Source: an uncultured bacterium
Lineage (GTDB): Bacteria > Cyanobacteriota > Vampirovibrionia > Gastranaerophilales > Gastranaerophilaceae
Direction of reading: 5' to 3'
Assembly: GCA_949292185.1 (NCBI GenBank)
Contig: CASEYP010000006.1
Span: 1-32,714, forward strand
DNA length: 32,714 nt
The position numbers were made by a program, and so were the translations under genes. Position 1 is the first letter of the stretch, and each line of letters begins with the position of its first letter. Shown piece after piece: positions 3,877 through 32,606 of this stretch. The notes under the pieces were generated by a model, which did not search any database, was not told where the DNA came from, and worked only from the letters and a program-made list of their open reading frames with translations.

Positions 3877-3885
3877 TGTTACAAT
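3877..3885 (+). promoter_or_regulatory. Extended -10 promoter of era, predicted leaderless
   Basis: TGTTACAAT fits the TGnTATAAT extended -10 pattern. The hexamer ends 6 nt before the ATG at 3892, which would put the transcription start on the A of the start codon. There is no Shine-Dalgarno site between them. Confidence 0.6.
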
Positions 3886-3891
3886 ATCTTT

Positions 3892-4788
3892 ATGAAAAGC
3901 GGATTCGTTGCAATAATAGGTCGTCCAAATGTAGGTAAATCAACCCTTTTAAACCAAATTTTAGGGCAAAAAATAGTCATAACAACTGACAAAGCACAAA
4001 CAACCAGAAAAAGAATAAAAGGGATTTACACAACAGAAGAAGGACAAATAGTTTTTATAGACACTCCGGGGGTTCATAAACCTTTAAATAAACTCGGAGA
4101 ATTCTTACTTGATGAAGCAAAAATAGCCGTTCCTGATGCTGATGTAATATTATTTTTAGTTGACGGCTCAGAACCTGCAGGAAAAGGTGACAAATGGATT
4201 TGTCAAAATCTTTTGCAAACACAAATTCCTATAATTATTGTTATGAATAAAGTTGATAAGATAAAAAAACAAGAAAAAATTGAAGCAAATCTTTTATCCT
4301 ATAAAACTTTGTTTGACAAAAATTTCCCGGTGGTAAAAATTTCAGCAAAAACAGGAAGAAATATTGACACCCTAATAAAAAATATATATAAAAAATTACC
4401 TCAAGGAGAACCAATGTATCCTGAGGAAATCGTAACAGAAGAAACTATGCGAGATGTAACAGAAGAAGTTATAAGAGAAAAAATTTTATTAAATACTTCA
4501 GATGAAATTCCGCACTCTGTTGCAGTAAAAGTTGATAAATATAAAGAAGAAGAAACTATTGATAAAATTTATGCAACAATATACTGTGAACACAAAAGTC
4601 AAAAAGGTATTTTAATAGGTAAAGGCGGAAACTTATTAAAGAAAATAGGAACAGAATCAAGACTGGAACTTGAAAAAATAACAGAGAAAAAAGTCTACCT
4701 TGAACTTCAGGTAAAAGTTGAAAAAGATTGGCGTAAAAAAGAAAAAATACTTAAAGATTTTGGATATCAACAACAAAAAGAAAACTAA
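3892..4788 (+). CDS. era: GTPase Era
   Basis: At 298 residues it has the normal Era length and order of parts. The GTPase domain has G1 GRPNVGKS (about residues 10-17), the switch region with TTRKRIKG, G3 DTPG (about 58-61), G4 NKVD and G5 SAKTG. The C-terminal KH domain (about 200-285) has the GILIGKGGNLLKKIG loop. Era binds the 3' end of 16S rRNA and acts in late assembly of the small ribosomal subunit. The gene stands alone: its promoter abuts the start codon and a strong terminator follows directly. The usual neighbours (rnc, ybeY, recO) are not present here. Confidence 0.97.
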   Translation: MKSGFVAIIGRPNVGKSTLLNQILGQKIVITTDKAQTTRKRIKGIYTTEEGQIVFIDTPGVHKPLNKLGEFLLDEAKIAVPDADVILFLVDGSEPAGKGDKWICQNLLQTQIPIIIVMNKVDKIKKQEKIEANLLSYKTLFDKNFPVVKISAKTGRNIDTLIKNIYKKLPQGEPMYPEEIVTEETMRDVTEEVIREKILLNTSDEIPHSVAVKVDKYKEEETIDKIYATIYCEHKSQKGILIGKGGNLLKKIGTESRLELEKITEKKVYLELQVKVEKDWRKKEKILKDFGYQQQKEN

Positions 4789-4792
4789 TTAT

Positions 4793-4833
4793 AAAAAATA
4801 AAGAAGCCTTTAAAAAAGACTTCTTTATTTTTT
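4793..4833. terminator. Bidirectional terminator between era and the convergent gene
   Basis: A 14-bp inverted repeat (4793-4806 with 4820-4833, core AATAAAGAAG / CTTCTTTATT) is flanked by an A-run on the left and a T-run on the right. It can therefore terminate era on the + strand and the 4856-5362 gene on the minus strand. Confidence 0.85.
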
Positions 4834-4855
4834 GCGTAATTCGTATATGTTTTAT

Positions 4856-5362
4856 TTAAAAGTTCAAAGTTTTAACATTTAGTACTGTTTGAAATTTACT
4901 TATTTCTCTCAAATACTGTTCAAGAGCAATATAACCGTTATAAATTTCATTAGAAATAGAAGCATAACGACTAGCTTCCAAGAATTTTAATTCTTTTACA
5001 CGGATTAACAAAATATTATCAGAAACTTCTCTTTGTTGTGGATCTTCAGAAGATGACCATTTTTGTAAAAGAGCCAATTCTTCATACATTTGTTTTGTTG
5101 TTGTAAATTCCAAAATATTAAAATCATATTTTTCTAAAAGAGCTTTTTCAACATTAGAAATTCTACTCATACAAGCTTGGAATTTAAAAACTTTTTTAAT
5201 AATCATATAATTATCGGCAATTCTTTTATGAGATGCCGGAACATTATTCTTTGCAAGTAAAGCAGCAAATGAACGTGATGTAAAAGTATCATTTTCACTG
5301 GAAAATGCACTTTTTGAAGTTAAGTCAAAATCAGATTTCTTTTCTACCATTTCGTCTAACAT
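4856..5362 (-). CDS. Hypothetical helical protein
   Basis: The 168-residue protein is not recognised. It has no signal peptide or membrane segment. The first 40 residues are Ser/Asp/Lys-rich and probably disordered; the rest is predicted by eye to be helical, with regularly spaced hydrophobic residues (for example YMIIKKVFKFQACMSRI and EKALLEKYDF). A good ribosome binding site (GTGGAGG, about 6 nt before the ATG) supports both the gene and its start. It is monocistronic: divergent from the TPR gene and convergent with era. Its codon use looks like that of the neighbours. A lineage-specific cytoplasmic protein is the safest description. Confidence 0.6.
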   Translation of the reverse strand: MLDEMVEKKSDFDLTSKSAFSSENDTFTSRSFAALLAKNNVPASHKRIADNYMIIKKVFKFQACMSRISNVEKALLEKYDFNILEFTTTKQMYEELALLQKWSSSEDPQQREVSDNILLIRVKELKFLEASRYASISNEIYNGYIALEQYLREISKFQTVLNVKTLNF

Positions 5363-5669
5363 TCTGCCTCCACTTTATATATATAAGATATTAAAATAAT
5401 CGTAAATATTTGTCATGATATTTTGTCAAATATTTTACATTTGTTAAGATAAAAATAAAAATTTTTAATAAAAAATTTCCCCAAAAATACTTTCAAAATA
5501 GCCACAAAAAAAGATAAAACATGTAAAAATTTACGATAATTAAATTGACTTTCGCCTTAAAAAACTTAAATTTATCATGGCATAAATCATCTAAAAGTAT
5601 GACCTTTTTAAATTGAAATTATGCTAAAAATATAGTGTATAATATCAGGCTTGAAGGTAAAAACAGAAT
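5363..5669. other. Divergent intergenic region
   Basis: These 307 bases separate two divergent genes. The right end holds the TPR gene's -10 site (5636-5643). The left end holds the GTGGAGG ribosome binding site of the minus-strand gene, preceded by an AT-only stretch (TATATATATAA) that may supply its -10. The middle is very AT-rich and I see no ORF or strong hairpin in it. Confidence 0.5.
5636..5643 (+). promoter_or_regulatory. -10 site of the TPR gene, with a leader
   Basis: TGTATAAT lies about 26 nt before the ATG at 5670. The predicted leader of about 20 nt contains GAAGG as a weak ribosome binding site. A possible -35 (TTGAAA, 5613-5618) is 19 nt upstream, which is long. Confidence 0.5.
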
Positions 5670-7253
5670 ATGGGATTGAGCTTAAATAACATATATCAAA
5701 GACCCTATGTTCAACAGGAGAGAAAGACTCCTGTCAAAAAGCGTGAAGAAAATGAAAAATCCGCAGCAGCCAATACCCAAAGAGAAGAACAAACCAACCA
5801 AGATAGCAAAAGTAAAGGATTACAATACGTAGAGCAAAAGAAACCTACCTACACACCTGCTTACGAACAACGTTTTGCAATGCCTACAAATAATGCATAC
5901 TCTAATGTAAATGCTAATGCTAATGCAAACATAAATCCTTCTTTATCACATTCAAACACTCAATCAACAACTTCAACTGCCGCAATAACAGGACAAACTC
6001 AAACTTCTGTTGATAATCAAATAAATATTGCCCAAATTCTAAAAGATTTTAGAAATACATCACTGGCTATTGGAACACCGGCAGATTTAGATGATATCGT
6101 AACAGGTTATCTTACATTAGTAGAAAAACAAGTTAAAACAGGAACTGCAGATCCAAAACTAGTTAAAACAACCCTAAAAACAGCAGCAACTGTACTTGAT
6201 AAATACATTTCAGAAACCCTAAATAAAGATTCTCAAGTTGTAGAAAAATGGGTAGATGCCCTATTCTTACAAAAAATAGATTTTTCATACAACGAAGATA
6301 ATATCAATGAAAGATTTTTAGTAAAATTCCCAGACGGCTCAACAAGTGTAAGCAAACGCCAAGCTGAAAATGCGGTTTCTGATGAAGCAGACAAAGCAGA
6401 ACAAACAGCAAAAGCTGCCCAAAGTCCTGATGTTATTCCAATTTCAGTTGCAGGACAAACAACTTCATCAAAAATTCCGCAAGATAAACAATTAAAATCA
6501 TTATTTATTCAAGCTAAAAAATATGCCTACGCAAATGATCCTGAAAATGCAATAAAATCATTTGAACAAGCACTAAATAGAGCACTTGAAGTTGATGATA
6601 CAGAAACTTCAGGCAAAATCTACTATGAAGTAGGAAAAATTTATGATGACCACGATTATATCCCACAAGCTCTAAAGAGTTATAATCAAGCAATAAAATT
6701 ATCAACAGATGAAAATGTTAAAACAAAAGCGCATTATTCAATGGCCCAAATTTACGATGATGTAAATCAAATTACACCAGCTATTGATCACTATTTTAGT
6801 ACAGTATCTCATGCCGGAGAAGCAGAAAACTTACCTGCACAATCCGCATCATTAACAAAACTTGGCAATATTTATACAGATATGTATGATAAAGAAGCTT
6901 TTGATTATTATGATATGGCAACAGATATTGCAAACGAAACTGATAATTCTCATCTAAAAGGTTTTGTTGCATCTAACACAGGAAAAGCATATACAAAATT
7001 TGACGAACCTGAAAAAGCTCTGAAATCATATTCAAAAGCCGTAAAAAATTATACAGATGCTGATTCTCCATTAAAAACTGCACAAAATTATCTTGCAGCC
7101 GCAGACATAATGGTTGAATTTAACAGCCTTCACAAAGCATCTAATCTACTTTCAAAAGCTCAAAAATATGCACGCCAAACAGATAATATAAACTTGATGA
7201 ATGAAATTAATACTAAATTAAAACAATTAAACGACTTGAATAAAGCAAACTAA
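5670..7253 (+). CDS. TPR-repeat protein with disordered N-terminus
   Basis: This 527-residue soluble protein has no signal peptide. Residues 1-115 are low-complexity (Lys/Glu/Gln, then a stretch of NANANAN). A helical region at about 118-205 follows, then a second linker. The C-terminal half (about 270-520) is a series of tetratricopeptide repeats of about 36-40 residues, with the usual small and aromatic positions (for example AKKYAYANDPENAIKSFEQA and ALKSYNQAIKLSTD). Such repeats form a superhelical protein-binding scaffold; the partner is unknown. The next gene starts 10 nt after the stop, so the two are probably cotranscribed. Confidence 0.8.
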   Translation: MGLSLNNIYQRPYVQQERKTPVKKREENEKSAAANTQREEQTNQDSKSKGLQYVEQKKPTYTPAYEQRFAMPTNNAYSNVNANANANINPSLSHSNTQSTTSTAAITGQTQTSVDNQINIAQILKDFRNTSLAIGTPADLDDIVTGYLTLVEKQVKTGTADPKLVKTTLKTAATVLDKYISETLNKDSQVVEKWVDALFLQKIDFSYNEDNINERFLVKFPDGSTSVSKRQAENAVSDEADKAEQTAKAAQSPDVIPISVAGQTTSSKIPQDKQLKSLFIQAKKYAYANDPENAIKSFEQALNRALEVDDTETSGKIYYEVGKIYDDHDYIPQALKSYNQAIKLSTDENVKTKAHYSMAQIYDDVNQITPAIDHYFSTVSHAGEAENLPAQSASLTKLGNIYTDMYDKEAFDYYDMATDIANETDNSHLKGFVASNTGKAYTKFDEPEKALKSYSKAVKNYTDADSPLKTAQNYLAAADIMVEFNSLHKASNLLSKAQKYARQTDNINLMNEINTKLKQLNDLNKAN

Positions 7254-7263
7254 ATTTTAGCAA

Positions 7264-8064
7264 ATGAATCATTCAATAATATTGATTACTACAATTTTAT
7301 TATTTTTATTTATTCTTATTTGGTTAACCCTAATCGAACCAAATCAAATAGAAATTAAACACTACAAAATTCAAGACCCGCAACTAAAAGGACTAAGAAT
7401 TGTTTTTGCAGGCGATTTTCATTTTAAAAAACATCAACAAAAACGAGCCGACAAAATAATTTCTCTCATCAATCAACAAAATGCAGACCTAGTCTTATCA
7501 ACAGGAGATTATATATATTGTCACAAAGAATCAGCATCAATGCCAATAGCAAAAATTGCCGAAAATTTAAGTAAAATTCAACCGCCATTTTACACAACTC
7601 TAGGCAACCACGACTTTTGGGCAGGAAATGAAAAAATTACAAAAGAATTTGAAAAACATAACATAACCGTATTATCAAACAGTAATACTAAAATTAAAAT
7701 TAAAGATAAAACCATTTATATAGCAGGTGTAGAAGATTTACAAACAGGCTCGCCAAATGTAGAAAAAGCTTTAGAAAACACAACCTCACCCCGAATTCTT
7801 CTAACACATTCACCTGATATTTTCCCAGATATTTGGCAAGAGGATATAAATTTAATCCTTGCAGGACATCTTCACGGAGGACAAATACGCATTCCTCTCA
7901 TTGGCGCTATCATAATACCTTCTAAATATGGCAATACTTATTCACAAGGTCTTATTGTTGACAATAACAATAAAAAAATGATTGTAACAAAAGGCTTAGG
8001 GACAAGTATTCTTCCGATAAGATTTAATTGCAAACCTGATTTAATCGTAATTGATTTTATATAA
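7264..8064 (+). CDS. Calcineurin-like metallophosphoesterase (YkuE/YaeI type)
   Basis: The 266-residue protein starts with one membrane helix (about residues 5-22). It then carries the full metal-binding signature of the family: GDFHF (D-x-H), GDY, GNHD, the H in LTHSPD and the final GHLHGGQIRIP. This arrangement is typical of the membrane-anchored YkuE/YaeI group, some of which hydrolyse UDP-diacylglucosamine or other phosphoesters; the substrate here cannot be told from sequence. The start lies 10 nt after the TPR stop with no clear ribosome binding site, suggesting translation linked to the upstream gene. A strong terminator follows directly. Confidence 0.9.
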   Translation: MNHSIILITTILLFLFILIWLTLIEPNQIEIKHYKIQDPQLKGLRIVFAGDFHFKKHQQKRADKIISLINQQNADLVLSTGDYIYCHKESASMPIAKIAENLSKIQPPFYTTLGNHDFWAGNEKITKEFEKHNITVLSNSNTKIKIKDKTIYIAGVEDLQTGSPNVEKALENTTSPRILLTHSPDIFPDIWQEDINLILAGHLHGGQIRIPLIGAIIIPSKYGNTYSQGLIVDNNNKKMIVTKGLGTSILPIRFNCKPDLIVIDFI

Positions 8065-8068
8065 CAAT

Positions 8069-8098
8069 AAAAAACGACTGAAATTTCAGTCGTTTTTT
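8069..8098. terminator. Bidirectional terminator
   Basis: A perfect 30-base palindrome (stem core AACGACTGAA / TTCAGTCGTT) is flanked by six A on one side and six T on the other. It sits between two convergent genes and can serve both strands. Confidence 0.9.
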
Positions 8099-8815: not shown

Positions 8816-8839
8816 CTAAAATTTTCTCCCTCAACTTTA

Positions 8840-10285
8840 TTACTCATTTTTAAAAATTCCGATATTATATTTTCGGCAATATCTCTTCAATTCTTTCATT
8901 ATTATATCAGATAATAAAAATACTGCAAATAAGTTAGGAACTGCTAAAAATAAAGTAAACGCATCAGACAAATTTACAACACTTTTTAAGTTCATAGCAG
9001 AACCAATAATTATAAATAAACAATAAATAATTTGGAAAGTTCTTGTCGTAGCCTTAGATTCCCCGAATAAAAATGTCCAGCTTTTTGTTCCGTAATAAGA
9101 ACCGCACAACATAGTAGATAAAACAAAACAACTAGCCATAAAAGTTAACAAAATAGGGAAAAACGGACAAACAGATGCAAACGCTTTAGAGGTTAATTCA
9201 ATTCCCTCAATTCCGTTTGTATGTAAATAAGCACCTGTAACAACAATAATAAATGCCGTAGCAGAACCAACAATAACCGTATCCACAAAAGGTTGCAACA
9301 TTGCAATAAAAGCTTGAGCAACAGGTTTATTTGTTTTAACCGCAGAAAAAGCAATCGGAGCAGTACCTAAACCTGCCTCATTTGCAAACATTGCACGTCT
9401 AAATCCCCATAACATACAAGCAAAAACCCCGCCGGTTACCGCAGTAGGTTTAAATGCTTCTTTAACAATTAAGCAAACTGTTTGAGGAATATGATGAATA
9501 TTTAATAAACAAATTATAAAAGCTGAAAATACATACAAAGTACACATTACAGGCGTAACTTTTGATGTAAATTTACCGATCGATTTAATTCCGCCAATAA
9601 CAGTAACATAAGTAATTACAGCAACAATCAAGCCAAAAACCCAACGTTGATTGCCAAACAATCCCGTAACATTTGTTATTTGAGTTGTAATAGCATTTAT
9701 CTGGAACAAATTCCAACCGCCAATCATCGCAAATACACAACATATAGCATAAATTTTAGATAAGTAAGGTGCAAAAGGTTTAATCCAAGGTGCTCTCAAA
9801 CCGTTTGCAATATAATACATCGGTCCGCCGGAAGATGAACCGTCTTTATTAATTTGTCTAAATTTTATACCTAATAAAACTTCCGCAAATTTTAAAGCCA
9901 TAGAAAAAATTCCGGCAACAATCATCCAAAAAATAACCCCCGGCCCGCCAACAGAAACGGCTAAAGCAGATCCAACAACATTTCCCATGCCTGCAGAGGC
10001 TGAAATTGTTGCGGTTAAAGCTTGAAATGATGAAACTTCACCCTGTTTTTTTCTAATAATAGTATCTTCGTGTTTATATTTTTTTGTAATCAGATTTATA
10101 GCGTGCTTAAAACCCCAAAATCCGATAAATTTTGTTCTAAAAGTAAAATATAAAGCTGCAACCATTAAAAGGACAATCAAAAATTCCACACGAACCCCAT
10201 GAATGGTTACATGTGAAAAAATTAATCCAGAAATTTTATTTGCAACTGGTGATAATATACTATCAATTCGGCTATCTAAATTCAT
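8840..10285 (-). CDS. Sodium:amino-acid (alanine/glycine) symporter, AGCS family
   Basis: The protein is highly hydrophobic, with about ten or more membrane segments and the AGCS signature (FANEAGLGTAPIAFSA). Other conserved stretches are GNVVGSALAVSVGGPG and SSGGPMYYI. The family takes up alanine or glycine with Na+. The reading frame can be extended to an ATG at 10324, but that extension (13 residues) covers a TACAAT hexamer placed exactly 6 nt before the ATG at 10285. I therefore prefer 10285, giving 481 residues that begin MNLDSRIDSIL, a start typical of the family. No Shine-Dalgarno site precedes it, consistent with a leaderless transcript. Confidence 0.92.
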   Translation of the reverse strand: MNLDSRIDSILSPVANKISGLIFSHVTIHGVRVEFLIVLLMVAALYFTFRTKFIGFWGFKHAINLITKKYKHEDTIIRKKQGEVSSFQALTATISASAGMGNVVGSALAVSVGGPGVIFWMIVAGIFSMALKFAEVLLGIKFRQINKDGSSSGGPMYYIANGLRAPWIKPFAPYLSKIYAICCVFAMIGGWNLFQINAITTQITNVTGLFGNQRWVFGLIVAVITYVTVIGGIKSIGKFTSKVTPVMCTLYVFSAFIICLLNIHHIPQTVCLIVKEAFKPTAVTGGVFACMLWGFRRAMFANEAGLGTAPIAFSAVKTNKPVAQAFIAMLQPFVDTVIVGSATAFIIVVTGAYLHTNGIEGIELTSKAFASVCPFFPILLTFMASCFVLSTMLCGSYYGTKSWTFLFGESKATTRTFQIIYCLFIIIGSAMNLKSVVNLSDAFTLFLAVPNLFAVFLLSDIIMKELKRYCRKYNIGIFKNE

Positions 10286-10291
10286 AATCAA

Positions 10292-10297
10292 ATTGTA
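10292..10297 (-). promoter_or_regulatory. -10 site of the symporter gene, predicted leaderless
   Basis: On the minus strand TACAAT, preceded by TG, ends 6 nt before the ATG at 10285. A start placed at 10324 would put this promoter inside the coding region. Confidence 0.55.
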
Positions 10298-10322: not shown

Positions 10323-10353
10323 AAAAGAAAAAGGCACTGAAATATTCAGCACC
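10323..10353 (-). terminator. Minus-strand terminator upstream of the symporter promoter
   Basis: On the minus strand GGTGCTGAA and TTCAGTGCC form a 9-bp stem with two G-U pairs and a 3-nt loop, followed by TTTTTCTTTT. It lies about 200 nt after the stop of the HD-domain gene, so it ends that transcript or a separate short RNA. Confidence 0.7.
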
Positions 10354-11445: not shown

Positions 11446-11454
11446 TGCTAAAAT
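11446..11454 (+). promoter_or_regulatory. Extended -10 promoter of the panE-like gene
   Basis: TGCTAAAAT matches TGnTANAAT and ends 9 nt before the ATG at 11464, predicting a leader of only about 3 nt. The same TGCTAAAAT occurs in the lptB promoter, and a close copy (GCGCTAAAAT) lies about 50 nt upstream. Confidence 0.5.
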
Positions 11455-12409: not shown

Positions 12410-12415
12410 TATAAT
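12410..12415 (+). promoter_or_regulatory. -10 site of mfd, predicted leaderless
   Basis: A consensus TATAAT lies in the 32-nt gap after the panE-like gene and ends 7 nt before the ATG at 12423. There is no Shine-Dalgarno site. Confidence 0.55.
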
Positions 12416-12422: not shown

Positions 12423-15400
12423 ATGTTTACAATAAACACAGATGATATTTCGCAAAGTTACGAAGACTTCCGACTAAATATAAAACAAGGAAAATCTTTT
12501 GCAATAACAGGTTTAACCTCATTATTGCGAATATTTCTCGTGTCAAAAATTAAACAATACTCTAAAAAGAAAATTCTATTTATCACATCAACAGAACAAA
12601 ATGCACTAAAATATCAAAGCGATTTGTTAAGTGCATTTGATATACATTCAGAAGTTTTACCGTTTCAAAACATTTCAATGTATGAAACGATTACCCCGAA
12701 TTTATATGATTATTCAGAACAATTAAAAATTTTCAAAAACCAGCCTGATATTGTAATCAGCCCTGTAAAATCTATTTTAGAAAAATTCCCTGATAAAGAA
12801 TTTTTCAAAAAGCACAGCTTAAATATCAAAATAGGCGACACAATAGATTTAAAAAAACTTGCCCAACAACTTGTTGATTTAGGGTACAAAAAATCCACGA
12901 TGGTGAATGATATCTCTGAATTTAGTATCAGAGGCGACATAGCAGATATTTTTTCACTTGATGATAACCCTGTAAGAATAGAATTATGGGGTGATGAAGT
13001 CGTAGATATAAGATATTTTAATAATGAAACTCAAAAATCTATTGAAAAAATTAAAGAAACATCAATTTTACCAATATACAAGTTTACACTGGATGGCAAA
13101 AAACAAGTTCTTGAAAACCTGCAAAAAGAAATTCTAAAAGATGAAGAAGATGCAGTTCCTGACGAATCATATTTTGAAGGAATTGAAGTATATCAAAACC
13201 TTTTTAATAAAAATCTTGTAAGTGTTTTAGATTATTTCAAAGATTACATTTTAGTTTTTGATGAAACTGCTGAAATATTTTCTAAATATGAATTTATAGA
13301 CGACAATTACAACAAACAACTGGAAGAAAATTTAAAACTCGGATTAATAAAAAATTTCGAAGGCAAAAACCATTTTACCTACGAAGAATTTTTAAGAAAG
13401 ACATCTTATTTTATCAAAATAGGATTAAACAATTTCATAGACGGGCATATGGAAAACCTTGTGGAATTTAATTCCCAACCATTGAGAAATTTTGAAGCTA
13501 ATCTTGATTTAATAACAGATTTTATAACAGAACACAAAGATTACAAAATAATAATCGCAACGGATTACCCTGAAAGAGTAAAAGAAATTCTACAAGAAAA
13601 AGATATTTTCGCAGTAGAATTTTCAGAAAGCATTGTTGTTGGCGGATGTATCTTAGAAGATTTCAAAACAATTATAATGACAGATAGAGAACTGTTTAAC
13701 AAACGTTCAAAAGAAATTACCGCAACAAAGAAATCCTATTTCAAAGAAAAACCTGAATATATAGAAAACATAAATGATATCAAACCGGGAGAATTTGTAG
13801 TTCATACAATTCACGGACTTGGAATATACAAAGGTTTATCAAAACAAGAAATTGACGGACAATTAAAAGATTATTTAACAATAGAATATGCGAACAAAGA
13901 TAAATTACATATTCCTGCAGAACAAATAAACCTTTTATGCAGATATAGAGGCTCAGGTAATATTAAACCAAAACTATCCAAAATGGGTGGCAGAGATTGG
14001 GAAACAACAAAAGCCAAAGTAAAAAAAGAAGTAGAAGTAGTTGCCTATGATTTGTTAAGATTATATGCAAGACGAAAAATGCAACAAGGTATACAATTTT
14101 TGCCTGATACAACTTGGCAGGTTGAAATGGAAGAAGCCTTTGAATTTGTTGAAACTCCTGACCAACTAAAAGCTATAGAACAAGTAAAAGCTGATATGGA
14201 ATCTCCTCAACCTATGGATAGACTAATCTGTGGTGATGTAGGTTTTGGAAAAACAGAAGTTGCAATGCGAGCAATTTTTAAAGCCGTAACCTCAGGAAAA
14301 CAAGCTGCCGTCGTTGTTCCTACAACAATTCTGGCATTTCAACATTTTCAAACCATAACAGAAAGATTTAAACCTTTTGGAGTCGATGTAGAACTTTTAT
14401 CAAGATTTAGGACACACAAAGAACAAAAAGAAACCATAAAAAATCTTGCAACAGGAAAATGTGATGTCGTAATCGGAACACATAGACTATTACAATCAGA
14501 TATTGTGTTTAAAGATTTAGGACTTCTTGTAATCGATGAAGAACATAGATTCGGTGTTCGACACAAGGAAAAACTAAAACAGCTTAGAGAAAACATAGAC
14601 ATAATCTCAATGTCAGCAACCCCAATTCCACGAACATTATATATGTCTTTATCCGGAATAAAAGATATGTCTGTCATAAATACCCCGCCTAAAAACAGAC
14701 TTCCGATAAAAACATACGTAGGCGAGTGGAATGAAACTATGGTAAAAAATGCCATAACCCACGAACTTGATAGAGAAGGACAAGTTTTCTACTTATATAA
14801 CAGGGTTGAAACAATCCTGGAATTTAAAAACCAACTTCAAAAAATCGTCCCAAATGCCAGAATAGCCGTAGGTCACGGACAAATGGATGATAAAGAATTG
14901 GAAGATGTAATTATTGCATTTTCAAATCACGAATATGACATTCTTCTTGCAACAACAATTATCGAAAACGGTATTGATATTCCAAATGCTAACACAATGA
15001 TCATCCATGATGCAGATAGATTTGGACTTGCACAATTATATCAATTAAGAGGTCGTGTAGGACGTTCTCAAAGACAAGCATATTGCTATTGCTTCTACAA
15101 AAAATGTAAGGAAATTACAGAAGACGCAGTTAATCGTCTAAAAGCAATCAAAGAATTTACAACACTTGGAAGCGGATACCAAATTGCACTAAGAGATGTT
15201 GAAATTCGTGGCGTTGGAAATATATTGGGTACAAAACAACACGGACATATGGTAAATGTCGGCTTTGACACATATTGTGAACTTTTAGAAGAAACTGTTC
15301 ATGAACTTCAAGGTGAAAAAGTAGACAAAACAACTCCAACAATAGTAGATATAAATGTAACAGCATACATCCCTGATGAATGGGTAGGTTCTGCTGAACA

Positions 15401-15809
15401 AAAAATGATTGAATATAAACGCTTGGCGGATGTAAAATCTTCTGTTGAACTTGATTATATTGTAGAAGAGTGGACAGATAGATTTGCAAAACCTCCGGAA
15501 AGTGTTGAAAATCTAATAAAACTTATCCGCTTACGACTTTCTGCAACTGAAGTTAAAATTTCAGCAATACGAGAAGTTCAAAATTGTATCAGAATTTATA
15601 CCCCATATTCAAAACCTGAATGGAATATGATTCAAAAAGTTTTACCACATAACATTTCAAAAAAAATAAAATTTACACAAGCACCAAAAACATGCACAGA
15701 AGGCGTTTCTATCTTGATTTTAGATACTTCTTATGTAAATTTTGATGAAGTTTTTAACATTTTAACAGATTTGTTTTATTATATATATAAAGTTAGTCAT
15801 GAATACTAA
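12423..15809 (+). CDS. mfd: Transcription-repair coupling factor Mfd
   Basis: This protein of about 1128 residues has the standard Mfd domain order. First comes a UvrB-like N-terminal module that lacks a nucleotide site. The RNA-polymerase-interacting (CarD-like) domain follows, around PGEFVVHTIHGLGIYKG (about 455-530). The superfamily 2 translocase has Walker A GDVGFGKTEVA (about 604), DEEH (about 706), SATPIPRTL and QLRGRVGRS. A C-terminal TRCF domain closes it. Mfd removes RNA polymerase stalled at lesions and recruits UvrA. A TTG at 12417 could add two residues, but the ATG at 12423 sits 7 nt from a consensus -10 site and is preferred. The PpiC-type gene follows after 18 nt. Confidence 0.97.
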   Translation: MFTINTDDISQSYEDFRLNIKQGKSFAITGLTSLLRIFLVSKIKQYSKKKILFITSTEQNALKYQSDLLSAFDIHSEVLPFQNISMYETITPNLYDYSEQLKIFKNQPDIVISPVKSILEKFPDKEFFKKHSLNIKIGDTIDLKKLAQQLVDLGYKKSTMVNDISEFSIRGDIADIFSLDDNPVRIELWGDEVVDIRYFNNETQKSIEKIKETSILPIYKFTLDGKKQVLENLQKEILKDEEDAVPDESYFEGIEVYQNLFNKNLVSVLDYFKDYILVFDETAEIFSKYEFIDDNYNKQLEENLKLGLIKNFEGKNHFTYEEFLRKTSYFIKIGLNNFIDGHMENLVEFNSQPLRNFEANLDLITDFITEHKDYKIIIATDYPERVKEILQEKDIFAVEFSESIVVGGCILEDFKTIIMTDRELFNKRSKEITATKKSYFKEKPEYIENINDIKPGEFVVHTIHGLGIYKGLSKQEIDGQLKDYLTIEYANKDKLHIPAEQINLLCRYRGSGNIKPKLSKMGGRDWETTKAKVKKEVEVVAYDLLRLYARRKMQQGIQFLPDTTWQVEMEEAFEFVETPDQLKAIEQVKADMESPQPMDRLICGDVGFGKTEVAMRAIFKAVTSGKQAAVVVPTTILAFQHFQTITERFKPFGVDVELLSRFRTHKEQKETIKNLATGKCDVVIGTHRLLQSDIVFKDLGLLVIDEEHRFGVRHKEKLKQLRENIDIISMSATPIPRTLYMSLSGIKDMSVINTPPKNRLPIKTYVGEWNETMVKNAITHELDREGQVFYLYNRVETILEFKNQLQKIVPNARIAVGHGQMDDKELEDVIIAFSNHEYDILLATTIIENGIDIPNANTMIIHDADRFGLAQLYQLRGRVGRSQRQAYCYCFYKKCKEITEDAVNRLKAIKEFTTLGSGYQIALRDVEIRGVGNILGTKQHGHMVNVGFDTYCELLEETVHELQGEKVDKTTPTIVDINVTAYIPDEWVGSAEQKMIEYKRLADVKSSVELDYIVEEWTDRFAKPPESVENLIKLIRLRLSATEVKISAIREVQNCIRIYTPYSKPEWNMIQKVLPHNISKKIKFTQAPKTCTEGVSILILDTSYVNFDEVFNILTDLFYYIYKVSHEY

Positions 15810-17025: not shown

Positions 17026-17069
17026 ATGCAAAAATCATACAAATGCTTTATTATATATTTTATTTACTC

Positions 17070-17078
17070 TGTTATAAT
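17070..17078 (+). promoter_or_regulatory. Extended -10 promoter, predicted leaderless
   Basis: TGTTATAAT is a full-consensus extended -10 and ends exactly 6 nt before the ATG at 17085. An upstream in-frame ATG at 17043 would place the promoter inside the coding region. Confidence 0.65.
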
Positions 17079-17084: not shown

Positions 17085-18299
17085 ATGTTTGATATATCAT
17101 CACCAACAATATATATACCTATAATATTTTTAACCTTAGTCGCAACCTTTGTGTCTATATTATATAAAGACGCCAAGAAAAATACTCATGAAAATACCAG
17201 AGATTTGCCGTATTTTTCAGAGATTTCGCTATCAATGAACTATATAAACAGAAATATATTGGAAGATGGTAGATTTCAATACAGAAAAAATATAGATCCT
17301 GAAATAAAATACAATAACACCATATATAACTCATTACGCCATGCCGGCACATTATACTCAATGTATATGTACGAGCAATATGGCTTAGAAAAAAAATTCA
17401 AAGAAGCCAGAATAAAATCATCAAAATATTTTATCGAAAGATACGTAAAAAAATTCGGACAGGATAAATATATAGTCCTATCAATTCCTGAAGAAGAACA
17501 AATAAAATTCCCGATAGCAAAATCAGGAGCAGCAGGAGTTGCACTTTGTGCTTTATCAAACTTATACAAAGATAATGAGATTGATTTAAGTATATTACAA
17601 GGTTTAGGAGAATTTTTATTATACCTTCAAAATGAAGAAGGCAATATCTATGCCTATTATGATTTGAAAGGAAAAACAATAAACAAAGAAGCCGAGGCAG
17701 TATTTTACCCAGGAGAAGCAGCAGCAGGTTTAATGTATTTATACGAAGTTGACCCTCAGCAAAAATGGTTAGATGCTGCCAAAAAAGCTGTATTATATCT
17801 TGCAAAAACCAGAAAAGCATTAGAATCTGATATTCCATTTGATCACTGGTCAGTTTTGACAATAGAAAAGCTTTTCCAACAAAATCTTGTAACTCCTGAA
17901 GAGAAGGTTACTTTGAGAAACTATGCAGAACAAATGGCAATTCCGACTCTAAGCAGCCAAATCACAAATTCCAACAACAGTTACTTTGGAGCCTTCAAAG
18001 ATAATATCAGACCTTGCAGTTTAGGTACAATAATGGAAGGTTTATCATCAATATATTTTTGCACAGATAGCGAAAACTTGAAAAAAATTATCTTCAAATC
18101 ACTATCTATCGGCTGTATCTTTTTAAGTAAAGTTCAAGTCAAAACAGGTGAACAAGCAGGAGGATTACCAAATTCAGCAAACTGGGTAAAACCCGGAGTT
18201 TCACCAAATGCAAGTGTCATAAGAATTGACAACGTTCAACACGTTGTAACAGGTTGGTTAAAATTCCAAAATATTCTAAAAATTACTGGCGAATATTAA
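17085..18299 (+). CDS. Membrane-anchored alpha/alpha-toroid (six-hairpin glycosidase-like) protein
   Basis: With the start at 17085 the protein has about 404 residues: a hydrophobic N-terminal anchor (about 6-25, IYIPIIFLTLVATFVSILY) and then an all-helical body. Features recall six-hairpin/alpha-alpha toroid proteins: RHAGTLYSMYMYEQYG, KSGAAGVALCALSNLY, and FYPGEAAAGLMYLYEVDPQQKWLDAA followed by DHW. Such folds occur in glycosidases, lyases and epimerases acting on polysaccharides; no catalytic pair can be assigned with certainty here, so enzyme activity is an inference. Extending to the ATG at 17043 would add 14 residues but would cover the TGTTATAAT promoter. Its 3' end overlaps the convergent GGDEF gene by 17 bp. 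Confidence 0.6.
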   Translation: MFDISSPTIYIPIIFLTLVATFVSILYKDAKKNTHENTRDLPYFSEISLSMNYINRNILEDGRFQYRKNIDPEIKYNNTIYNSLRHAGTLYSMYMYEQYGLEKKFKEARIKSSKYFIERYVKKFGQDKYIVLSIPEEEQIKFPIAKSGAAGVALCALSNLYKDNEIDLSILQGLGEFLLYLQNEEGNIYAYYDLKGKTINKEAEAVFYPGEAAAGLMYLYEVDPQQKWLDAAKKAVLYLAKTRKALESDIPFDHWSVLTIEKLFQQNLVTPEEKVTLRNYAEQMAIPTLSSQITNSNNSYFGAFKDNIRPCSLGTIMEGLSSIYFCTDSENLKKIIFKSLSIGCIFLSKVQVKTGEQAGGLPNSANWVKPGVSPNASVIRIDNVQHVVTGWLKFQNILKITGEY

Positions 18300-26400: not shown

Positions 26401-27330
26401 TTACAATTTCAGATTTGTCTGAATTTTAAACTGATTTTTTAACAAAGTATTTGTTCCGTCAAATATAGAATTTGTTCCTAATTCAAATTTCAAACGATCA
26501 AGATCTTTTCGCCCAAAAGGATTTATTGAAATAGTAAATTCTGCTTGTCTGATATTTTTAACAATATCCGCAGATAACGTTTCACGTAAAGTAAAATACT
26601 GATTAATTTTAATCTCAGGAGCAAAATAAAACTTATCATTATAGTTATTATTTGTAGAATTGATAGTCTTTTTATATGCAGAACTGACAGCAAAATATTT
26701 TGTATCATATCTGGAAAAAATTCCTGTAGTTTGTTCAAATTCAGCATAATCTATACCCTGATTATAAGTTGTACCAATTGAAAAATTACCTTTTGTTGTA
26801 GTTGTAACATTTGATACAGGCGCGATACTATATTCAACTTTGTTGTATTTCGTAAATACTTCAGGACTTTTGAAAAATAAATTATCAGAACCACTATATA
26901 CTTCATCACTTACTTTTGAAGGTTTTTTAATATTTAGTGATAACACATCATTAAGATCATCTTCTAAGAATATTGAATTTTCATCTTCCTCATTATATTC
27001 AGCATACCCTTTTAATACATCAGTGTACATATCCCCTAATTCATAATCTTCAACAACATCCTCATCGTCACCACTATCTTCTTCAGCATCTTCATCCACT
27101 TTGCCTGAAGTATCAGCTGTTATATCATCACTTGTAATAATTTTTTTATCCTTATTATTTTTATCAGAATTAACCTCATCTGATGCAGATTCTAAATCGT
27201 CATCATCCGGTATGTGGTAAATAAAAACTTTTGCAGAAGTATCTGTGGCATCTTTATCTGTTACAGATTTTGCATTAGCGGGTAAAAATGTCAACAAAAG
27301 ACATATTAAAATTAAGCTAACCTTCTTCAT
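26401..27330 (-). CDS. Secreted beta-rich protein, possible outer-membrane protein
   Basis: The 309-residue protein has a signal peptide (about 1-20, ending ANA-K), then a strongly acidic, probably disordered region (about 50-125, rich in DDED). A C-terminal region (about 155-309) of alternating beta strands follows (KVEYSIAPVSNVTT, NFSIGTTYNQG, KFYFAPEIKINQYFTLRETLSA). The last residues (FKIQTNLKL) end with Leu rather than the classical aromatic residue. A small outer-membrane barrel is possible but not proven. No named family is recognised. A TGTAAAAT site 9 nt before the ATG predicts a very short leader. Confidence 0.55.
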   Translation of the reverse strand: MKKVSLILICLLLTFLPANAKSVTDKDATDTSAKVFIYHIPDDDDLESASDEVNSDKNNKDKKIITSDDITADTSGKVDEDAEEDSGDDEDVVEDYELGDMYTDVLKGYAEYNEEDENSIFLEDDLNDVLSLNIKKPSKVSDEVYSGSDNLFFKSPEVFTKYNKVEYSIAPVSNVTTTTKGNFSIGTTYNQGIDYAEFEQTTGIFSRYDTKYFAVSSAYKKTINSTNNNYNDKFYFAPEIKINQYFTLRETLSADIVKNIRQAEFTISINPFGRKDLDRLKFELGTNSIFDGTNTLLKNQFKIQTNLKL

Positions 27331-27339: not shown

Positions 27340-27347
27340 ATTTTACA
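27340..27347 (-). promoter_or_regulatory. -10 site of the beta-rich protein gene
   Basis: On the minus strand TGTAAAAT ends 9 nt before the ATG at 27330, with no ribosome binding site between. This predicts a leader of about 3 nt. Confidence 0.4.
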
Positions 27348-28389: not shown

Positions 28390-28406
28390 GAATAGAGGTT
28401 TTATAA

Positions 28407-29123
28407 ATGTATAATTTACAAGGAATAATTTCAAAAGGCACAAATAACGCGTTACTTCAATTTGATAAATTCGGTCAAATTGCAAATAACCTTGCAAACT
28501 TTCAAACAACAGGCTACAAAAACGTTACTTTTGAACAGATTTTAAGAGAAGACGGATACTTAACAGGTGCCGTTAGAACAGACTATTCTCAAGGTTCAAT
28601 AAGAATTACAAGCAACCCTTATGATGTTGCAATAGATGGAGCCGGATATATTCCTGTAGTTTCCCCATCCGGAGAAGTTCAATACACAAGAGACGGCTCA
28701 TTTGTTCAAGGCAAAAACGGTTTCTTAACAACAAGGGATGGCTGGCTTGTCGGTGAGGGAATCCAAATTCCTACAAACTGTTTCAAGTTTGAAATTAAGA
28801 AAAACGGTGATGTTATGGCTTATGATTCAAGAGGAGCAAAAGCCAAAAAGGTCGGAACAATTCCGTTAATTAGATTTGACAATCCTGCAGGCATGGAACA
28901 AGCAGATATGAACAGATTAAAAGCAACAGATGATGCTGGAGAAGCAAGACTTGTAAAAGATCATGATTGCTTTAGACAAAACAACCTTGAAGCATCAAAT
29001 GTAAGTATTTTTAGATCAGCAAATGACTTGTTAAGATTGAATGCCTCAATGCTTGCAAGTATGCAAATGATGAAACTTGCAGACACAATGTATAACAAAG
29101 CCATAAATATAAGAGAAGCTTAG
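28407..29123 (+). CDS. flgG: Flagellar distal-rod protein FlgG-like
   Basis: The 238-residue protein starts with the rod-protein N-terminus (FDKFGQIANNLANFQTTGYKNVTFEQILRE), followed by the GSIRITSNPYDVAIDGAGYIPV and YTRDGSFVQGKNGFLTTRDGWLVGEG blocks typical of FlgG/FlgF. The C-terminal helix (QNNLEASNVSIFRSANDLLRLNASMLASMQMMKLADTMYNKA) has the usual E-x-SNV element but not the standard MITTQRAYE motif. At 238 residues it is shorter than a normal FlgG (about 260). FlgG polymerises into the distal rod crossing the periplasm. The ribosome binding site is AGAGG. It could also be called FlgF. Confidence 0.82.
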   Translation: MYNLQGIISKGTNNALLQFDKFGQIANNLANFQTTGYKNVTFEQILREDGYLTGAVRTDYSQGSIRITSNPYDVAIDGAGYIPVVSPSGEVQYTRDGSFVQGKNGFLTTRDGWLVGEGIQIPTNCFKFEIKKNGDVMAYDSRGAKAKKVGTIPLIRFDNPAGMEQADMNRLKATDDAGEARLVKDHDCFRQNNLEASNVSIFRSANDLLRLNASMLASMQMMKLADTMYNKAINIREA

Positions 29124-29152
29124 TAAAAAATTAAACGAAAGGTATAAATATC

Positions 29153-29500
29153 ATGTTTACGTCATTAGACAGTATGGGCAAAGTATCATTAATGATGGAC
29201 TTAATCTCTCAAAGACAAAGAGCATTAGGTTCTAATATTGCTAACGTTGATACTCCGGGCTATATCAGACAGGATATAGATTTTGGTCAATACTTAAGTA
29301 CAATGAATAGTCCATTAGAAACTAAATTATCAGAAAAATTAGGGCCTTCAGGTATTGCCCCTGACAGATCGGAAGAACCGGTTAATGCTGCTAATGAATT
29401 ACTGCAAATGCAGGAAAATTCAATTATGTACACTATGGCAACACGTAGAATGTCAAATATCATTACAGAAATGAAAACCGTAATAAATGTCGGTAAATAA
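29153..29500 (+). CDS. flgB: Flagellar basal-body rod protein FlgB
   Basis: The 115-residue protein has the FlgB length and motif. The N-terminal helix is LMDLISQRQRALGSNIANVDTPGYIRQDIDF and the C-terminal helix is ENSIMYTMATRRMSNIITEMKTVIN, which corresponds to the family's LMYQAALRLISGKF-type ending. FlgB builds the proximal rod next to the MS ring. Its position directly before flgC is the conserved flgBC pair. An AAAGG ribosome binding site precedes it. Confidence 0.9.
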   Translation: MFTSLDSMGKVSLMMDLISQRQRALGSNIANVDTPGYIRQDIDFGQYLSTMNSPLETKLSEKLGPSGIAPDRSEEPVNAANELLQMQENSIMYTMATRRMSNIITEMKTVINVGK

Positions 29501-29518
29501 TTAAGGCAGGTGATTTAA

Positions 29519-29962
29519 ATGGGTATAATGGAAACAATTGATATGGGTGCAAAAGCACTGCAAGTACATGGCAAAAGAATAGATGTCCATGCAAAAAACA
29601 TTGCAAACCTTGATACACCTAATTATGTAAGGAAAATCCCTGTTTTAACAGCAGTAGATGATATGTCATTCCATGGCTTGATGAATGTTATGAAAGAAGA
29701 TGTCTTCGGAGTCGGTACATTACCATATCTTCAAGGCGGAGTTAATTTTTCAGGTGTTGTAGAAGATCCGACACTCGGTGAAAAAATCTACAAACCCGGG
29801 CATCCTGATGCAGATGAAAACGGTTATATAAGAGCTTCAAACGTTAATGCCATGGTCGATATAGCAGATGCTTTAGTTGCCCAAAGAGCTTACGAAGCTA
29901 ACCTTGCACTGGTAAATATTTCTAAAGCCATGGCTCAAAGAGCTGTTGAAATCGGCAGGTAA
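29519..29962 (+). CDS. flgC: Flagellar basal-body rod protein FlgC
   Basis: The 147-residue protein carries the FlgC N-terminus (ALQVHGKRIDVHAKNIANLDTPNYVRKIPVL) and its very conserved C-terminal half: EDPTLGEKIYKPGHPDADENGYIRASNVNAMVDIADALVAQRAYEANLALVNISKAM. It is part of the proximal rod. The AGGTGA ribosome binding site 6 nt ahead fixes the start. fliE, which usually follows flgBC, is not here: the next genes are DUF3137-like membrane proteins. Confidence 0.95.
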   Translation: MGIMETIDMGAKALQVHGKRIDVHAKNIANLDTPNYVRKIPVLTAVDDMSFHGLMNVMKEDVFGVGTLPYLQGGVNFSGVVEDPTLGEKIYKPGHPDADENGYIRASNVNAMVDIADALVAQRAYEANLALVNISKAMAQRAVEIGR

Positions 29963-29979
29963 ATCTAAATAAAATTTGA

Positions 29980-30004
29980 AAATATATAAGCTTTTTATAT
30001 ATTT
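29980..30004. repeat. AT-only inverted repeat between flgC and the DUF3137 pair
   Basis: AAATATATAA (29980-29989) and TTATATATTT (29995-30004) pair over 10 bp with a 5-nt loop. The stem has no G or C and no T-run follows, so it is a poor terminator and transcription may continue into the next gene. Confidence 0.55.
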
Positions 30005-30036
30005 AAAATTACTAAATAAGGAAAAAGGAATAAATC

Positions 30037-31107
30037 ATGCTGGCTGATTGTATGGATAAATATAAAAACGATTTTGCAATAAAGTTTGCAAAAATTATGC
30101 AGCAGCAACTTGATATATGGAAAGATGTCCAAAATTCAAACAGACTCAGTTTACTAAGCTTACAGTCATTTGGGTTTTACTTTTTTATTGCCGCATTAGG
30201 AATGGTACCGGGGAAAAACGAACATAATTATAATTTAAAATTTCATCTTATATTAGCAGCAGTTTGTTTTGTCGGGGCAGTTATTGCAAATATACATAGT
30301 ACTAATAAAATATATCAAGACACAATCAAAGCAACTCTGTTTCCCGAATTGTTAAAAATTTTCGGTAATCTTCAATACCGCTCAAGCAGCTCCTTAACAA
30401 GTAAGTTAAATGCAAGCAGCATTATTCTTGATGATGAAACCGATAATGCAGCATCACTTGCAAGAAAGACTACAGATAACAATATAATATATGATATCAA
30501 AAGTTCCGTATTTCAAAACTCTCAACTTTACGACAAAAAAATAACAGAACGTACTGATGATGATGCTTTCTACGGAACATATAATGATGTTGCTCTGACG
30601 ATGGTAGAAACGGATTTCGGATGGAATGCTAAAGACAGATATAGAACTTACCATCGTATGTTCAAAGGTCTTGCAATGCGGTTTAAAATAAATAAAAAAA
30701 TCAAGTCGCGCGTATTGATTTTAACCAAATTTTCAATGACTAAAATTCCGAAGGGTTTTGAAAAAGTTGAATTGGAATCCGTAAAATTTAATAAAAAATA
30801 TAATGTTTGGGTTGACAGCCAGTCTGCTAAAGGAGAAGGACAAATTGAAGCGCGGTATCTTTTGAATACCGCATTTTTAGAAAGACTAATGCAAATCCAG
30901 ACAAGTTTTAGGGTACATCAGATGTGCTGTTCTATTTTTGGAAATTCTATGCTTGTCATGCTCCACACAAGAAAGGATTTATTTGAAATGAATCATTTGT
31001 TTGGCAGAATTGATGATACAACCCAATACAGGCATTTGTTTAATGAGTTTGCATCTGTTTTATCTTTTATTGATGTACTAAATCTCTCAAGCAAAACAAA
31101 GTTATAA
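30037..31107 (+). CDS. DUF3137-like membrane protein, copy 1
   Basis: The 356-residue protein has a cytoplasmic-looking N-terminal helix (CMDKYKNDFAIKFAKIMQQQ), two membrane helices (about 41-57 and 69-87), a linker, and then a conserved beta-rich domain (about 185-350). Segments such as RMFKGLAMRFKINKKIKSRVLIL, GFEKVELES, GQIEARYLLNTAFLERLMQIQ and the closing DLFEMNHLFGRIDD resemble DUF3137, a family of unknown function. AAGGA, 7 nt before the ATG, supports the start. It is 75 nt downstream of flgC on the same strand. It is a tandem paralogue of the next gene. Confidence 0.75.
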   Translation: MLADCMDKYKNDFAIKFAKIMQQQLDIWKDVQNSNRLSLLSLQSFGFYFFIAALGMVPGKNEHNYNLKFHLILAAVCFVGAVIANIHSTNKIYQDTIKATLFPELLKIFGNLQYRSSSSLTSKLNASSIILDDETDNAASLARKTTDNNIIYDIKSSVFQNSQLYDKKITERTDDDAFYGTYNDVALTMVETDFGWNAKDRYRTYHRMFKGLAMRFKINKKIKSRVLILTKFSMTKIPKGFEKVELESVKFNKKYNVWVDSQSAKGEGQIEARYLLNTAFLERLMQIQTSFRVHQMCCSIFGNSMLVMLHTRKDLFEMNHLFGRIDDTTQYRHLFNEFASVLSFIDVLNLSSKTKL

Positions 31108-31125
31108 AATAACCGGAGAACCCAG

Positions 31126-32154
31126 ATGAGCCAAAACTGCATGGATAAATATAAAAGTGATTTCACTGCTAAATTTAAAGAAATAATGGATAAAGATGCA
31201 CATAAATGGAAAGAAATTCAAAAGGCAATAGTGCTAGAATTATTTAATAGGTTTTCTCTCTCAATATATGTTATATATTCCATTTTTGGATTTTCAATTC
31301 CTTATATTGCAAAAGTAGAAAATAATACTTTCCAATGGGCATTATTATGGGGTGGGACTTTCTTTTTATGGGCCTTTATTATGATTATTCAAGATAAAAA
31401 TAAGGATTATCAAGCAGAAATTAAACACAAAATTTTTCCGGAGTTGCTTAGTATTTTTGGTAATCTTGCCCATAAAGATGGTGATGTATTAAGAGGTCTT
31501 ACATCCGAATTAGACGACTTGGACAAAAAATCAAAAAATATAGATAACTCTGTATTTAATAACTCAGAATTATATCCCATTGATATAGAAATTCGAACTA
31601 ATGATGATATTTTTTACGGTCAATATAATAATGTTTCCTTAACAATGGTAGAAACAGATTTCGGCTGGAAAACACGAATTCTAAAATTCATAAAATATAA
31701 TCGCATGTTTAAAGGTCTTGCAATGCAATTCAAAATGAATAAGGAAATCAAATCACGAGTATTAATTTTAACTAAGTTTTCAATGACTCAAATTCCAAGG
31801 GGTTTTGAAAAAGTTGAATTGGAATCTGCAAAGTTTAATAAAAAATATGATATTTGGGTAGACACCCAATCTGATAAAAGCCAAGGACAGATTGAGGCTA
31901 GATATCTTCTGAATACTGCTTTTATGGAAAGATTAATGCAGATACAAACGAGTTTTAAAGTATCTAAGATGTGCTGCTCAATTTATAATGATACAATGCT
32001 TATTATGCTTAGCACAAGAAAAGATTTATTTGAAATGAACCACCTGTTCGGCAGAATTGATGATGTAAATCAATACAAGCATTTGTTTAACGAGTTTGCT
32101 TCTGTTTTATCTTTTATTGATGTATTAAATCTCTCAAGCAAAACAAAATTGTAA
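31126..32154 (+). CDS. DUF3137-like membrane protein, copy 2
   Basis: The 342-residue protein has the same plan as the preceding gene: an N-terminal CMDKYKSDF helix, two membrane helices (about 44-63 and 71-88), and the DUF3137-like domain (about 175-335) with RMFKGLAMQFKMNKEIKSR and GQIEARYLLNTAFMERLMQIQ. Its linker is shorter than in copy 1 and the membrane helices are quite different in sequence. GGAG, 7 nt before the ATG, and a gap of 18 nt from copy 1 indicate cotranslation from one mRNA. Function unknown. The two copies may form a heteromer; that is an inference. Confidence 0.75.
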   Translation: MSQNCMDKYKSDFTAKFKEIMDKDAHKWKEIQKAIVLELFNRFSLSIYVIYSIFGFSIPYIAKVENNTFQWALLWGGTFFLWAFIMIIQDKNKDYQAEIKHKIFPELLSIFGNLAHKDGDVLRGLTSELDDLDKKSKNIDNSVFNNSELYPIDIEIRTNDDIFYGQYNNVSLTMVETDFGWKTRILKFIKYNRMFKGLAMQFKMNKEIKSRVLILTKFSMTQIPRGFEKVELESAKFNKKYDIWVDTQSDKSQGQIEARYLLNTAFMERLMQIQTSFKVSKMCCSIYNDTMLIMLSTRKDLFEMNHLFGRIDDVNQYKHLFNEFASVLSFIDVLNLSSKTKL

Positions 32155-32162
32155 AATGGGTA

Positions 32163-32168
32163 TATAAT
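32163..32168 (+). promoter_or_regulatory. -10 site of the small membrane protein gene, predicted leaderless
   Basis: A consensus TATAAT ends exactly 6 nt before the ATG at 32175, and no ribosome binding site is present. It lies 8 nt after the stop of DUF3137 copy 2, so this gene may have its own promoter although it follows closely. Confidence 0.55.
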
Positions 32169-32174
32169 AAAAAT

Positions 32175-32606
32175 ATGAATTTGTCAAAATTAAAAAAATA
32201 TATAAGTTGGAATATTATATCAGCTATAGGCTACATAGGACTAATAATTTTCATATTTTTCCTAATAATAAGAGCCATAGGCCTATCTAACATAAATATG
32301 CGTGCAGATTTGAACGAATATTATACAGATTTTGTTACAAATCACATCATAAAACCATATTATGCGATATACAAATTTCAAATTTCTATAATAATTTTTC
32401 TTATGATAGGCTCATTATTTGAACACCATAAAAATATAGAAAATAACTTAACAGGATTTCAACCATTTGAAAGTTATAAAATAAGGAAAATCTATTCAAT
32501 ATTTTTTTATATAGGCATACTTCTAAACTTAGTACCATTATACATCCCATTCCTAGAGATAATAAGCTTATTAGTCAAATTTTGTGGTATAATAATACGG
32601 GTTTAG
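32175..32606 (+). CDS. Small hypothetical membrane protein
   Basis: The 143-residue protein is not recognised. It has three or four hydrophobic segments (about 14-33, 66-80, 106-121 and 123-139) separated by short charged loops (ADLNEYYTDF, EHHKNIENN, ESYKIRK). There is no signal peptidase site or known motif. Start support comes from the TATAAT placed 6 nt upstream. A hairpin with a T-run ends the transcript about 35 nt after the stop. Confidence 0.6.
   Translation: MNLSKLKKYISWNIISAIGYIGLIIFIFFLIIRAIGLSNINMRADLNEYYTDFVTNHIIKPYYAIYKFQISIIIFLMIGSLFEHHKNIENNLTGFQPFESYKIRKIYSIFFYIGILLNLVPLYIPFLEIISLLVKFCGIIIRV

Follow-up and report, generated by a model that had tools for sequence, protein, structure and literature searches.

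Leaderless transcription is already well described in bacteria, and the new part here is its likely occurrence in the lineage of the Gastranaerophilales. Zheng et al. (2011; PMC3160421) described a TANNNT signal ~12 base pairs (bp) before the start codon, counted from its first T and equal to a gap of 6 nucleotides (nt), which replaces the Shine-Dalgarno (SD) sequence, and detected this leaderless (TA-led) signal in 207 of 953 bacterial genomes. In that survey many Cyanobacteria genomes use neither SD-led nor leaderless genes, and its Table 2 has no cyanobacterial row. The StartLink paper on GeneMarkS-2 (PMC9581028) gives leaderless transcription as predicted for 21.6% of bacterial species and cites Cyanobacteria as an example of a weak, unknown signal, whilst PMC5397173 lists Cyanobacteria, with Bacteroidetes and Deinococcus-Thermus, as reported to have many leaderless messenger RNAs (mRNAs), which conflicts with PMC3160421 on the Cyanobacteria. 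The stretch considered here (the window: 32,714 nt, contig C6 of its assembly) comes from a Gastranaerophilales-type (Melainabacteria) genome of 30.4% G+C; the NCBI taxonomy places this order within Candidatus Melainabacteria, in the Cyanobacteriota/Melainabacteria group. Five of its genes, namely era, a sodium:alanine (AGCS) symporter gene, mfd, a toroid-like membrane gene and the last small membrane protein gene, carry a promoter-like -10 box 6 or 7 nt before their ATG. A full-text search, with subscription journals and supplements outside its reach, returned no paper that joins leaderless with Melainabacteria, Gastranaerophilales or Vampirovibrio.

Our sequence analysis makes it highly probable that a minority of the transcription units of this genome (44 of the 532 first or intermediate genes in the sample) makes leaderless mRNAs from a -10 box 6-7 nt before the start. 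As in the TA-led genes of PMC3160421, a gap-6 box stands in place of the SD sequence, and as in the leaderless genomes that GeneMarkS-2 recognises (PMC9581028), the promoter box near the gene start occurs alongside SD-led genes. Unlike the Cyanobacteria as described in PMC3160421, however, this gut-associated, non-photosynthetic sister group carries the signal before ~7% of its likely first or intermediate genes.

The genome containing the window comprises 1,888,546 bases on 33 contigs; besides the window we sampled 40 stretches of 20 kilobases, which brings the total to 832,714 bases (44%). Genes were called by codon usage, and the start was the leftmost well-supported ATG, picked blind to upstream motifs; starts from the coding score alone were rejected, several N-termini being truncated, those of mfd and the AGCS gene among them. 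The 733 genes were sorted by operon position, for which gene spacing was the sole guide, into 356 first genes (in divergent orientation, or 100 nt or more behind a gene on the same strand), 201 internal genes (at most 25 nt) and 176 intermediate genes (the remainder, including those at stretch edges). By gap we mean the nucleotides between the end of the hexamer and the start codon; gap profiles cover genes with at least 120 nt of upstream sequence within the stretch, and 200 dinucleotide shuffles of the upstream regions served as the null model.

TANAAT stands at gap 6 before 31 of the 532 first or intermediate genes: 20 of the 356 first genes (shuffle mean 2.9, maximum 8) and 11 of the 176 intermediate ones (mean 1.5, maximum 5). 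Internal genes show no such excess (1/201, against a shuffle mean of 1.3 and a maximum of 5). Gap 7 adds nine first, four intermediate and one internal gene, and gaps 5 and 8 are near background, so that a box at gap 6 or 7 precedes 44/532 first or intermediate genes versus 2/201 internal ones (Fisher p = 6e-5). The original prediction had expected a distance peak over shuffled upstream regions, concentrated in first genes, and it is indeed found, sharply at gap 6 in first and intermediate genes. Counted with the looser TANNNT, the excess at gaps 6-7 is 37.8 of the 532 genes, or ~7%.

Could such a peak be produced by base composition, codon phase or wrongly placed starts, with Tyr-Asn codons lying upstream of an internal Met? 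TATAAT is common in DNA this rich in A and T, gap 6 is in frame, and the count in the window alone is near chance. On the other hand, there is no peak in the shuffles, at the in-frame gaps 3 and 12, in internal genes or in a control with 12 nt between box and ATG (N12), and the peak survives in the 414 genes where, reading upstream, an in-frame stop is reached before a second start codon (gap 6 has 22, against three at gap 5 and two at gap 8). It also appears independently of annotation: TA[TC]AAT-N5-T-ATG has 41 matches at gap 6 and only 9-23 at any of the remaining gaps between 1 and 25, whilst the same pattern with a non-T base before the ATG has no gap-6 peak, nor do GTG and TTG starts in the genome sample. 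Considering as well the conservation among orthologues described below, we regard an artefact of this kind as scarcely credible.

The 44 genes share further features that played no part in their selection. An SD motif, scored in the sampled genes as GGAG, GAGG or AGGA, precedes two of them, versus 249 of the 488 other first or intermediate genes (p = 1.4e-10) and 112 of the 201 internal ones. The earlier claim that first genes are often leaderless thus stands as regards the existence of a leaderless class, whereas 'often' is too strong for an excess of ~7% with about half of the other genes SD-led; that internal genes mostly have clear ribosome binding sites holds loosely, at 112/201. Upstream of the 44 boxes, the match to TTGACA peaks at a spacer of 17 nt (mean 2.68 of 6 positions, other spacers from 10 to 25 giving 1.39-2.16), and at least four of six positions match in 16/44 of these genes, 69/196 leadered candidates and 355/2187 hexamers in open reading frames (ORFs); this -35 feature holds for the set as a whole and is weak in single genes. 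TGn precedes the hexamer in 13/44, as compared with 26/154 leadered candidates and 231/2294 hexamers inside ORFs. Finally, a T occupies position -1 in 30 of the 31 gap-6 genes versus 272 of the 488 others (p = 8e-7). The set includes the replication and repair genes dnaE, holA, uvrC, radA, rnhB and mfd, and also mnmE, nadD and mazG; eight members picked by choice were named with NCBIfam, as was the AmmeMemoRadiSam pair discussed below, which likewise belongs to the 44, and mfd with Pfam.

These features bear on the nature of the box. It could serve translation on leadered mRNAs, as a ribosome site of a kind other than the SD (AU-rich, S1-type or another), an idea that finds some favour in the AT-rich surroundings of the box, in the lack of SD motifs before these genes and in the U-rich upstream bias that PMC5397173 discusses as possible S1 sites for other phyla. 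However, operon-internal genes also need to be translated and are mostly without the box (2/201), and a ribosome site would not account for a -35 match at promoter spacing or for TGn in front of the hexamer in 13/44, against 231/2294 in ORFs. Together with the displaced promoters of the era gene, described below, this leaves a purely translational role very improbable.

A closer competitor accepts the promoters as real and places the start of transcription slightly further upstream, giving a very short leader of 1-5 nt as start-site choice drifts. In its favour are the 13 genes at gap 7 and a smaller group of nine at gap 9, as well as the mfd orthologues, which vary mainly between gaps 6 and 7. 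Yet the main class lies at exactly gap 6, the canonical distance from the hexamer to +1, and the T before the start fits a pyrimidine-purine initiator; moreover, mRNAs with a leader of 1-5 nt would functionally still be without an SD. We therefore hold short leaders to be unlikely as the general explanation, although they deserve more weight than the alternatives above. The nine genes with TANAAT at gap 9 have no SD motif (0/9) and T at -1 in 9/9, and may form a near-leaderless class. TAAAAT at gap 9 was also observed before two genes of the window, at 11449-11454 (+) for a panE/ApbA-like gene and at 27340-27345 (-) for the gene at 26401-27330.

Returning to the leaderless interpretation, a -10 box 6-7 nt before the start combined with an almost complete lack of SD motifs suggests that the mRNA begins at the start codon. 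A sigma-70-type holoenzyme would use the gap-6 and gap-7 boxes, with +1 falling on the A of the ATG at gap 6 and on the base before the ATG at gap 7. Ribosomes would then initiate on the 5'-terminal AUG, presumably as 70S particles, as they do on leaderless mRNAs elsewhere.

The era gene (3892..4788, + strand; Pfam MMR_HSR1 and KH_2, its identity also resting on orthologues) is predicted to be leaderless and offers an instructive series. Its extended -10, TGT TACAAT, lies at 3877..3885 on the + strand (hexamer 3880-3885), at gap 6 to the ATG. We compared the best 80 of 361 relatives, with Era identities of 80-95%, and all 80 have an extended -10 that fits TRTGnTANNNT. In 68 of the 80 it sits at gap 6 (48) or gap 7 (20), with an SD-like motif in 0/68; in the other 12 it sits at gap 24-52, with an SD-like motif in 10/12. 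No box lies between these two groups among the 80 relatives, and in one locus (L062) the ATG has moved 12 nt upstream and the box has moved along with it, keeping gap 6. That the same box is found 24-52 nt upstream in leadered relatives is hard to square with a ribosome site. Instead, the series reads as a natural switch in which the promoter stays the same and, as far as the letters indicate, the leader and its SD appear to come and go together.

How often, and in which direction, would this switch have been thrown? A tree of Era proteins, with the outgroups outside it, requires three or more changes to explain the leadered state, two of them forced by well-supported branches. Outside the family but within the order, SD-like motifs precede 15 of 18 era genes, and TANNNT at gap 6 or 7 precedes one. 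We infer that era passed from an SD-led to a leaderless state at the root of the family and that part of the family later changed back; this polarity should be read as a proposal on the order of these events.

A second arrangement came from a search for closely spaced divergent genes. The gene for AmmeMemoRadiSam B+A and that for its radical SAM partner (both named by NCBIfam) are divergent, with 21 bp between their start codons (L035:12311-12331, G000:C20), and this intergenic region holds a palindromic -10, AGTATTATAATACT. Near full-length matches were obtained at 23 loci (L340-L346, partial or distant, were left out, as were matches that had no locus), several of them near-copies, such that the counts are not independent. 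The spacing is exactly 21 bp in 17/23, and in these the Memo side has gap 6 and the SAM side gap 7. The intergenic comparison used 20 of the 23 strings, leaving out L336 (no partner gene found), L337 (557 bp) and L339 (90 bp), and TATAAT is present on both strands in 20/20. One locus has 22 bp and gap 7 on both sides, and two genomes of family f7 have 49 bp, where the SAM side keeps gap 7 and the Memo side has gap 34 together with AAGG-type SD letters. As 21 bp between divergent start codons are too few to hold an SD-bearing leader, this -10 is predicted to yield two divergent leaderless mRNAs, whose starts would lie 22 bp apart if both fall on the A of the ATG.

Symmetric bidirectional promoters are known: according to Warman et al. 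(2021), as cited in PMC10268837, a near-symmetric -10 gives two starts on opposite strands 7-25 bp apart. The 22 bp predicted for the AmmeMemoRadiSam pair fall within this range. Unlike the promoters described in PMC10268837, for which 18 bp is the commonest spacing, the promoter here fills the whole 21-bp gap and both mRNAs are predicted to be leaderless. In the same search, divergent pairs in which one or both genes have TANAAT at gap 6 or 7 were observed at L004:16450-16491 (42 bp) and L036:2427-2467 (41 bp), besides L035:12311-12331 (21 bp).

Taken together, we think it rather likely that the Gastranaerophilales have a mixed mode of initiation, in which genes change back and forth between a leaderless and an SD-led form on a constant promoter and in which one palindromic -10 in a 21-bp gap fires two divergent AUG-started mRNAs. 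The era switch and the predicted 21-bp double promoter are the most novel aspects of this work.

As for the window itself, the five hexamers are where the original prediction had put them, at gap 6 for era, the AGCS gene, the toroid-like gene and the last small protein gene and at gap 7 for mfd; the TGT before the hexamer is there in era and the toroid-like gene, and the upstream letters bear out the lack of an SD in all five. The letters thus point to the leaderless type for all five, with less certainty for the last small protein gene than for the other four. Further comparisons for the AGCS, mfd and toroid-like genes used 30 loci per gene, our own included and fewer than the matches listed, and not one of these 90 upstream regions has an SD motif. 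The AGCS gene (8840..10285, - strand; Pfam Na_Ala_symp; predicted leaderless) has TACAAT at 10292..10297 (-), gap 6. Among its orthologues TANAAT is at gap 6 in 25/30 and TANNNT in 29/30, SD 0/30, and the ATG is in the same place in 30/30, which makes the ATG of 8840..10285 the likely start rather than an upstream TTG at 10324.

The mfd gene (12423..15809, + strand; Pfam UvrB_inter, CarD_TRCF_RID, DEAD, Helicase_C and TRCF) is likewise predicted to be leaderless, from TATAAT at 12410..12415 (+), gap 7, within a 32-nt gap 3' of the panE/ApbA-like gene. In its 30 upstream regions TANAAT occurs at gap 6 (11), gap 7 (15), gap 8 (1), gap 9 (1) and gap 10 (2), with SD 0/30; in the two gap-10 cases (L209 and L210) there is an ATG one codon upstream, giving gap 7. 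These regions are otherwise unalignable by eye, hence the hexamer and its spacing are what is kept, and this is a pattern that codon phase or misplaced starts would hardly leave behind.

Upstream of the toroid-like gene (17085..18299, + strand; no Pfam match; predicted leaderless), the extended -10 TGT TATAAT is at 17070..17078 (+; hexamer 17073-17078), gap 6, and TANAAT is at gap 6 in 30/30 orthologues, with SD 0/30. An in-frame ATG at 17043 lies upstream of this conserved start. Further upstream of the promoter, at 17030..17054 (+), the element AAAAATCATACAAATGCTTTATTAT, recognised by eye in the 30 orthologue upstream regions, is conserved; it is possibly a regulator or operator site, or an upstream promoter site. 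The last small membrane protein gene (32175..32606, + strand; no Pfam match; predicted leaderless) has TATAAT at 32163..32168 (+), gap 6, the least strictly conserved box of the five. The protein is present in 15/59 genomes, and starts were placed in 14 of the 15 loci, our own included (L294 is a fragment): TANAAT is at gap 6 in 6/14 and TANNNT in 10/14, an SD-like motif occurs in 0/14, and the gap-6 box is absent in L283, L284, L285 and L291. A leaderless state of this gene is thus supported by the comparison, less strictly than for the other four.

To see how far the signal extends, we counted TATAAT-N6-ATG against the in-frame N12 control in 292 genomes of the phylum. Within the family of the window, N6 outnumbers N12 by 14786 to 6728 and is higher in 130/130 genomes; in f9, a family of the same class with five genomes, the counts are 309 and 178. 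The large families f17, f18, f25, f28 and f35, probably oxygenic cyanobacteria to judge from the size and number of their genomes, show no excess of N6 over N12 (ratios of 0.94 to 1.19; pooled 2961 versus 2890). Three families of other classes, f12, f16 and f20, were observed to have an N6 excess (213/73, 24/3 and 36/6), a hint that leaderless genes occur elsewhere in the phylum. N6 also exceeds N12 in families with few matches (f44 43/29, f10 20/13, f19 12/4).

Several observations weigh against the leaderless interpretation, or at least against its breadth. Counted within the window by itself, the motif is marginal and near chance, about twofold over shuffles, with several matches inside genes: TANAAT-N6-ATG has 10 matches versus 5.7 expected (5 of 100 shuffles have as many) and TANAAT-N7-ATG 11 versus 5.7 (7 of 100). 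Across the genome sample, the annotation-free peak is modest once the T(-1) filter is dropped (TATAAT-N6-ATG 52, versus 19-42 at other gaps from 0 to 20). Two of the 44 genes do have SD motifs, two internal genes carry a gap-6/7 box, and the orthologue sets consist of close relatives that are not independent of one another. The genome's own 16S 3' end was not found, and the anti-SD was seen in 10/59 relative genomes searched. Outside the family of the window the evidence points both ways: within the order, four genomes from f2 and f4 are without an N6 excess over a backward control (91/122, 70/78, 77/93 and 82/78), and among 71 first genes of f9, TANAAT occurs at gap 8 in five, gap 9 in four and gap 6 in three, small numbers by which this family may favour gaps 8-9. 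The stretch samples from other families, six sets of few genes in which f9 and f12 pool several species, are too small for a clear gap profile.

If the leaderless interpretation is true, the non-photosynthetic sister group of the cyanobacteria also uses leaderless initiation, and gene finders tuned to SD motifs may misplace starts in the Gastranaerophilales lineage. The era gene adds an intriguing twist. The Era protein binds the 3' end of 16S rRNA, which bears the anti-SD, and a leaderless era message would therefore not need a free anti-SD, although this is speculation. The era orthologues provide a ready-made comparison for the interchange of SD-led and leaderless initiation.

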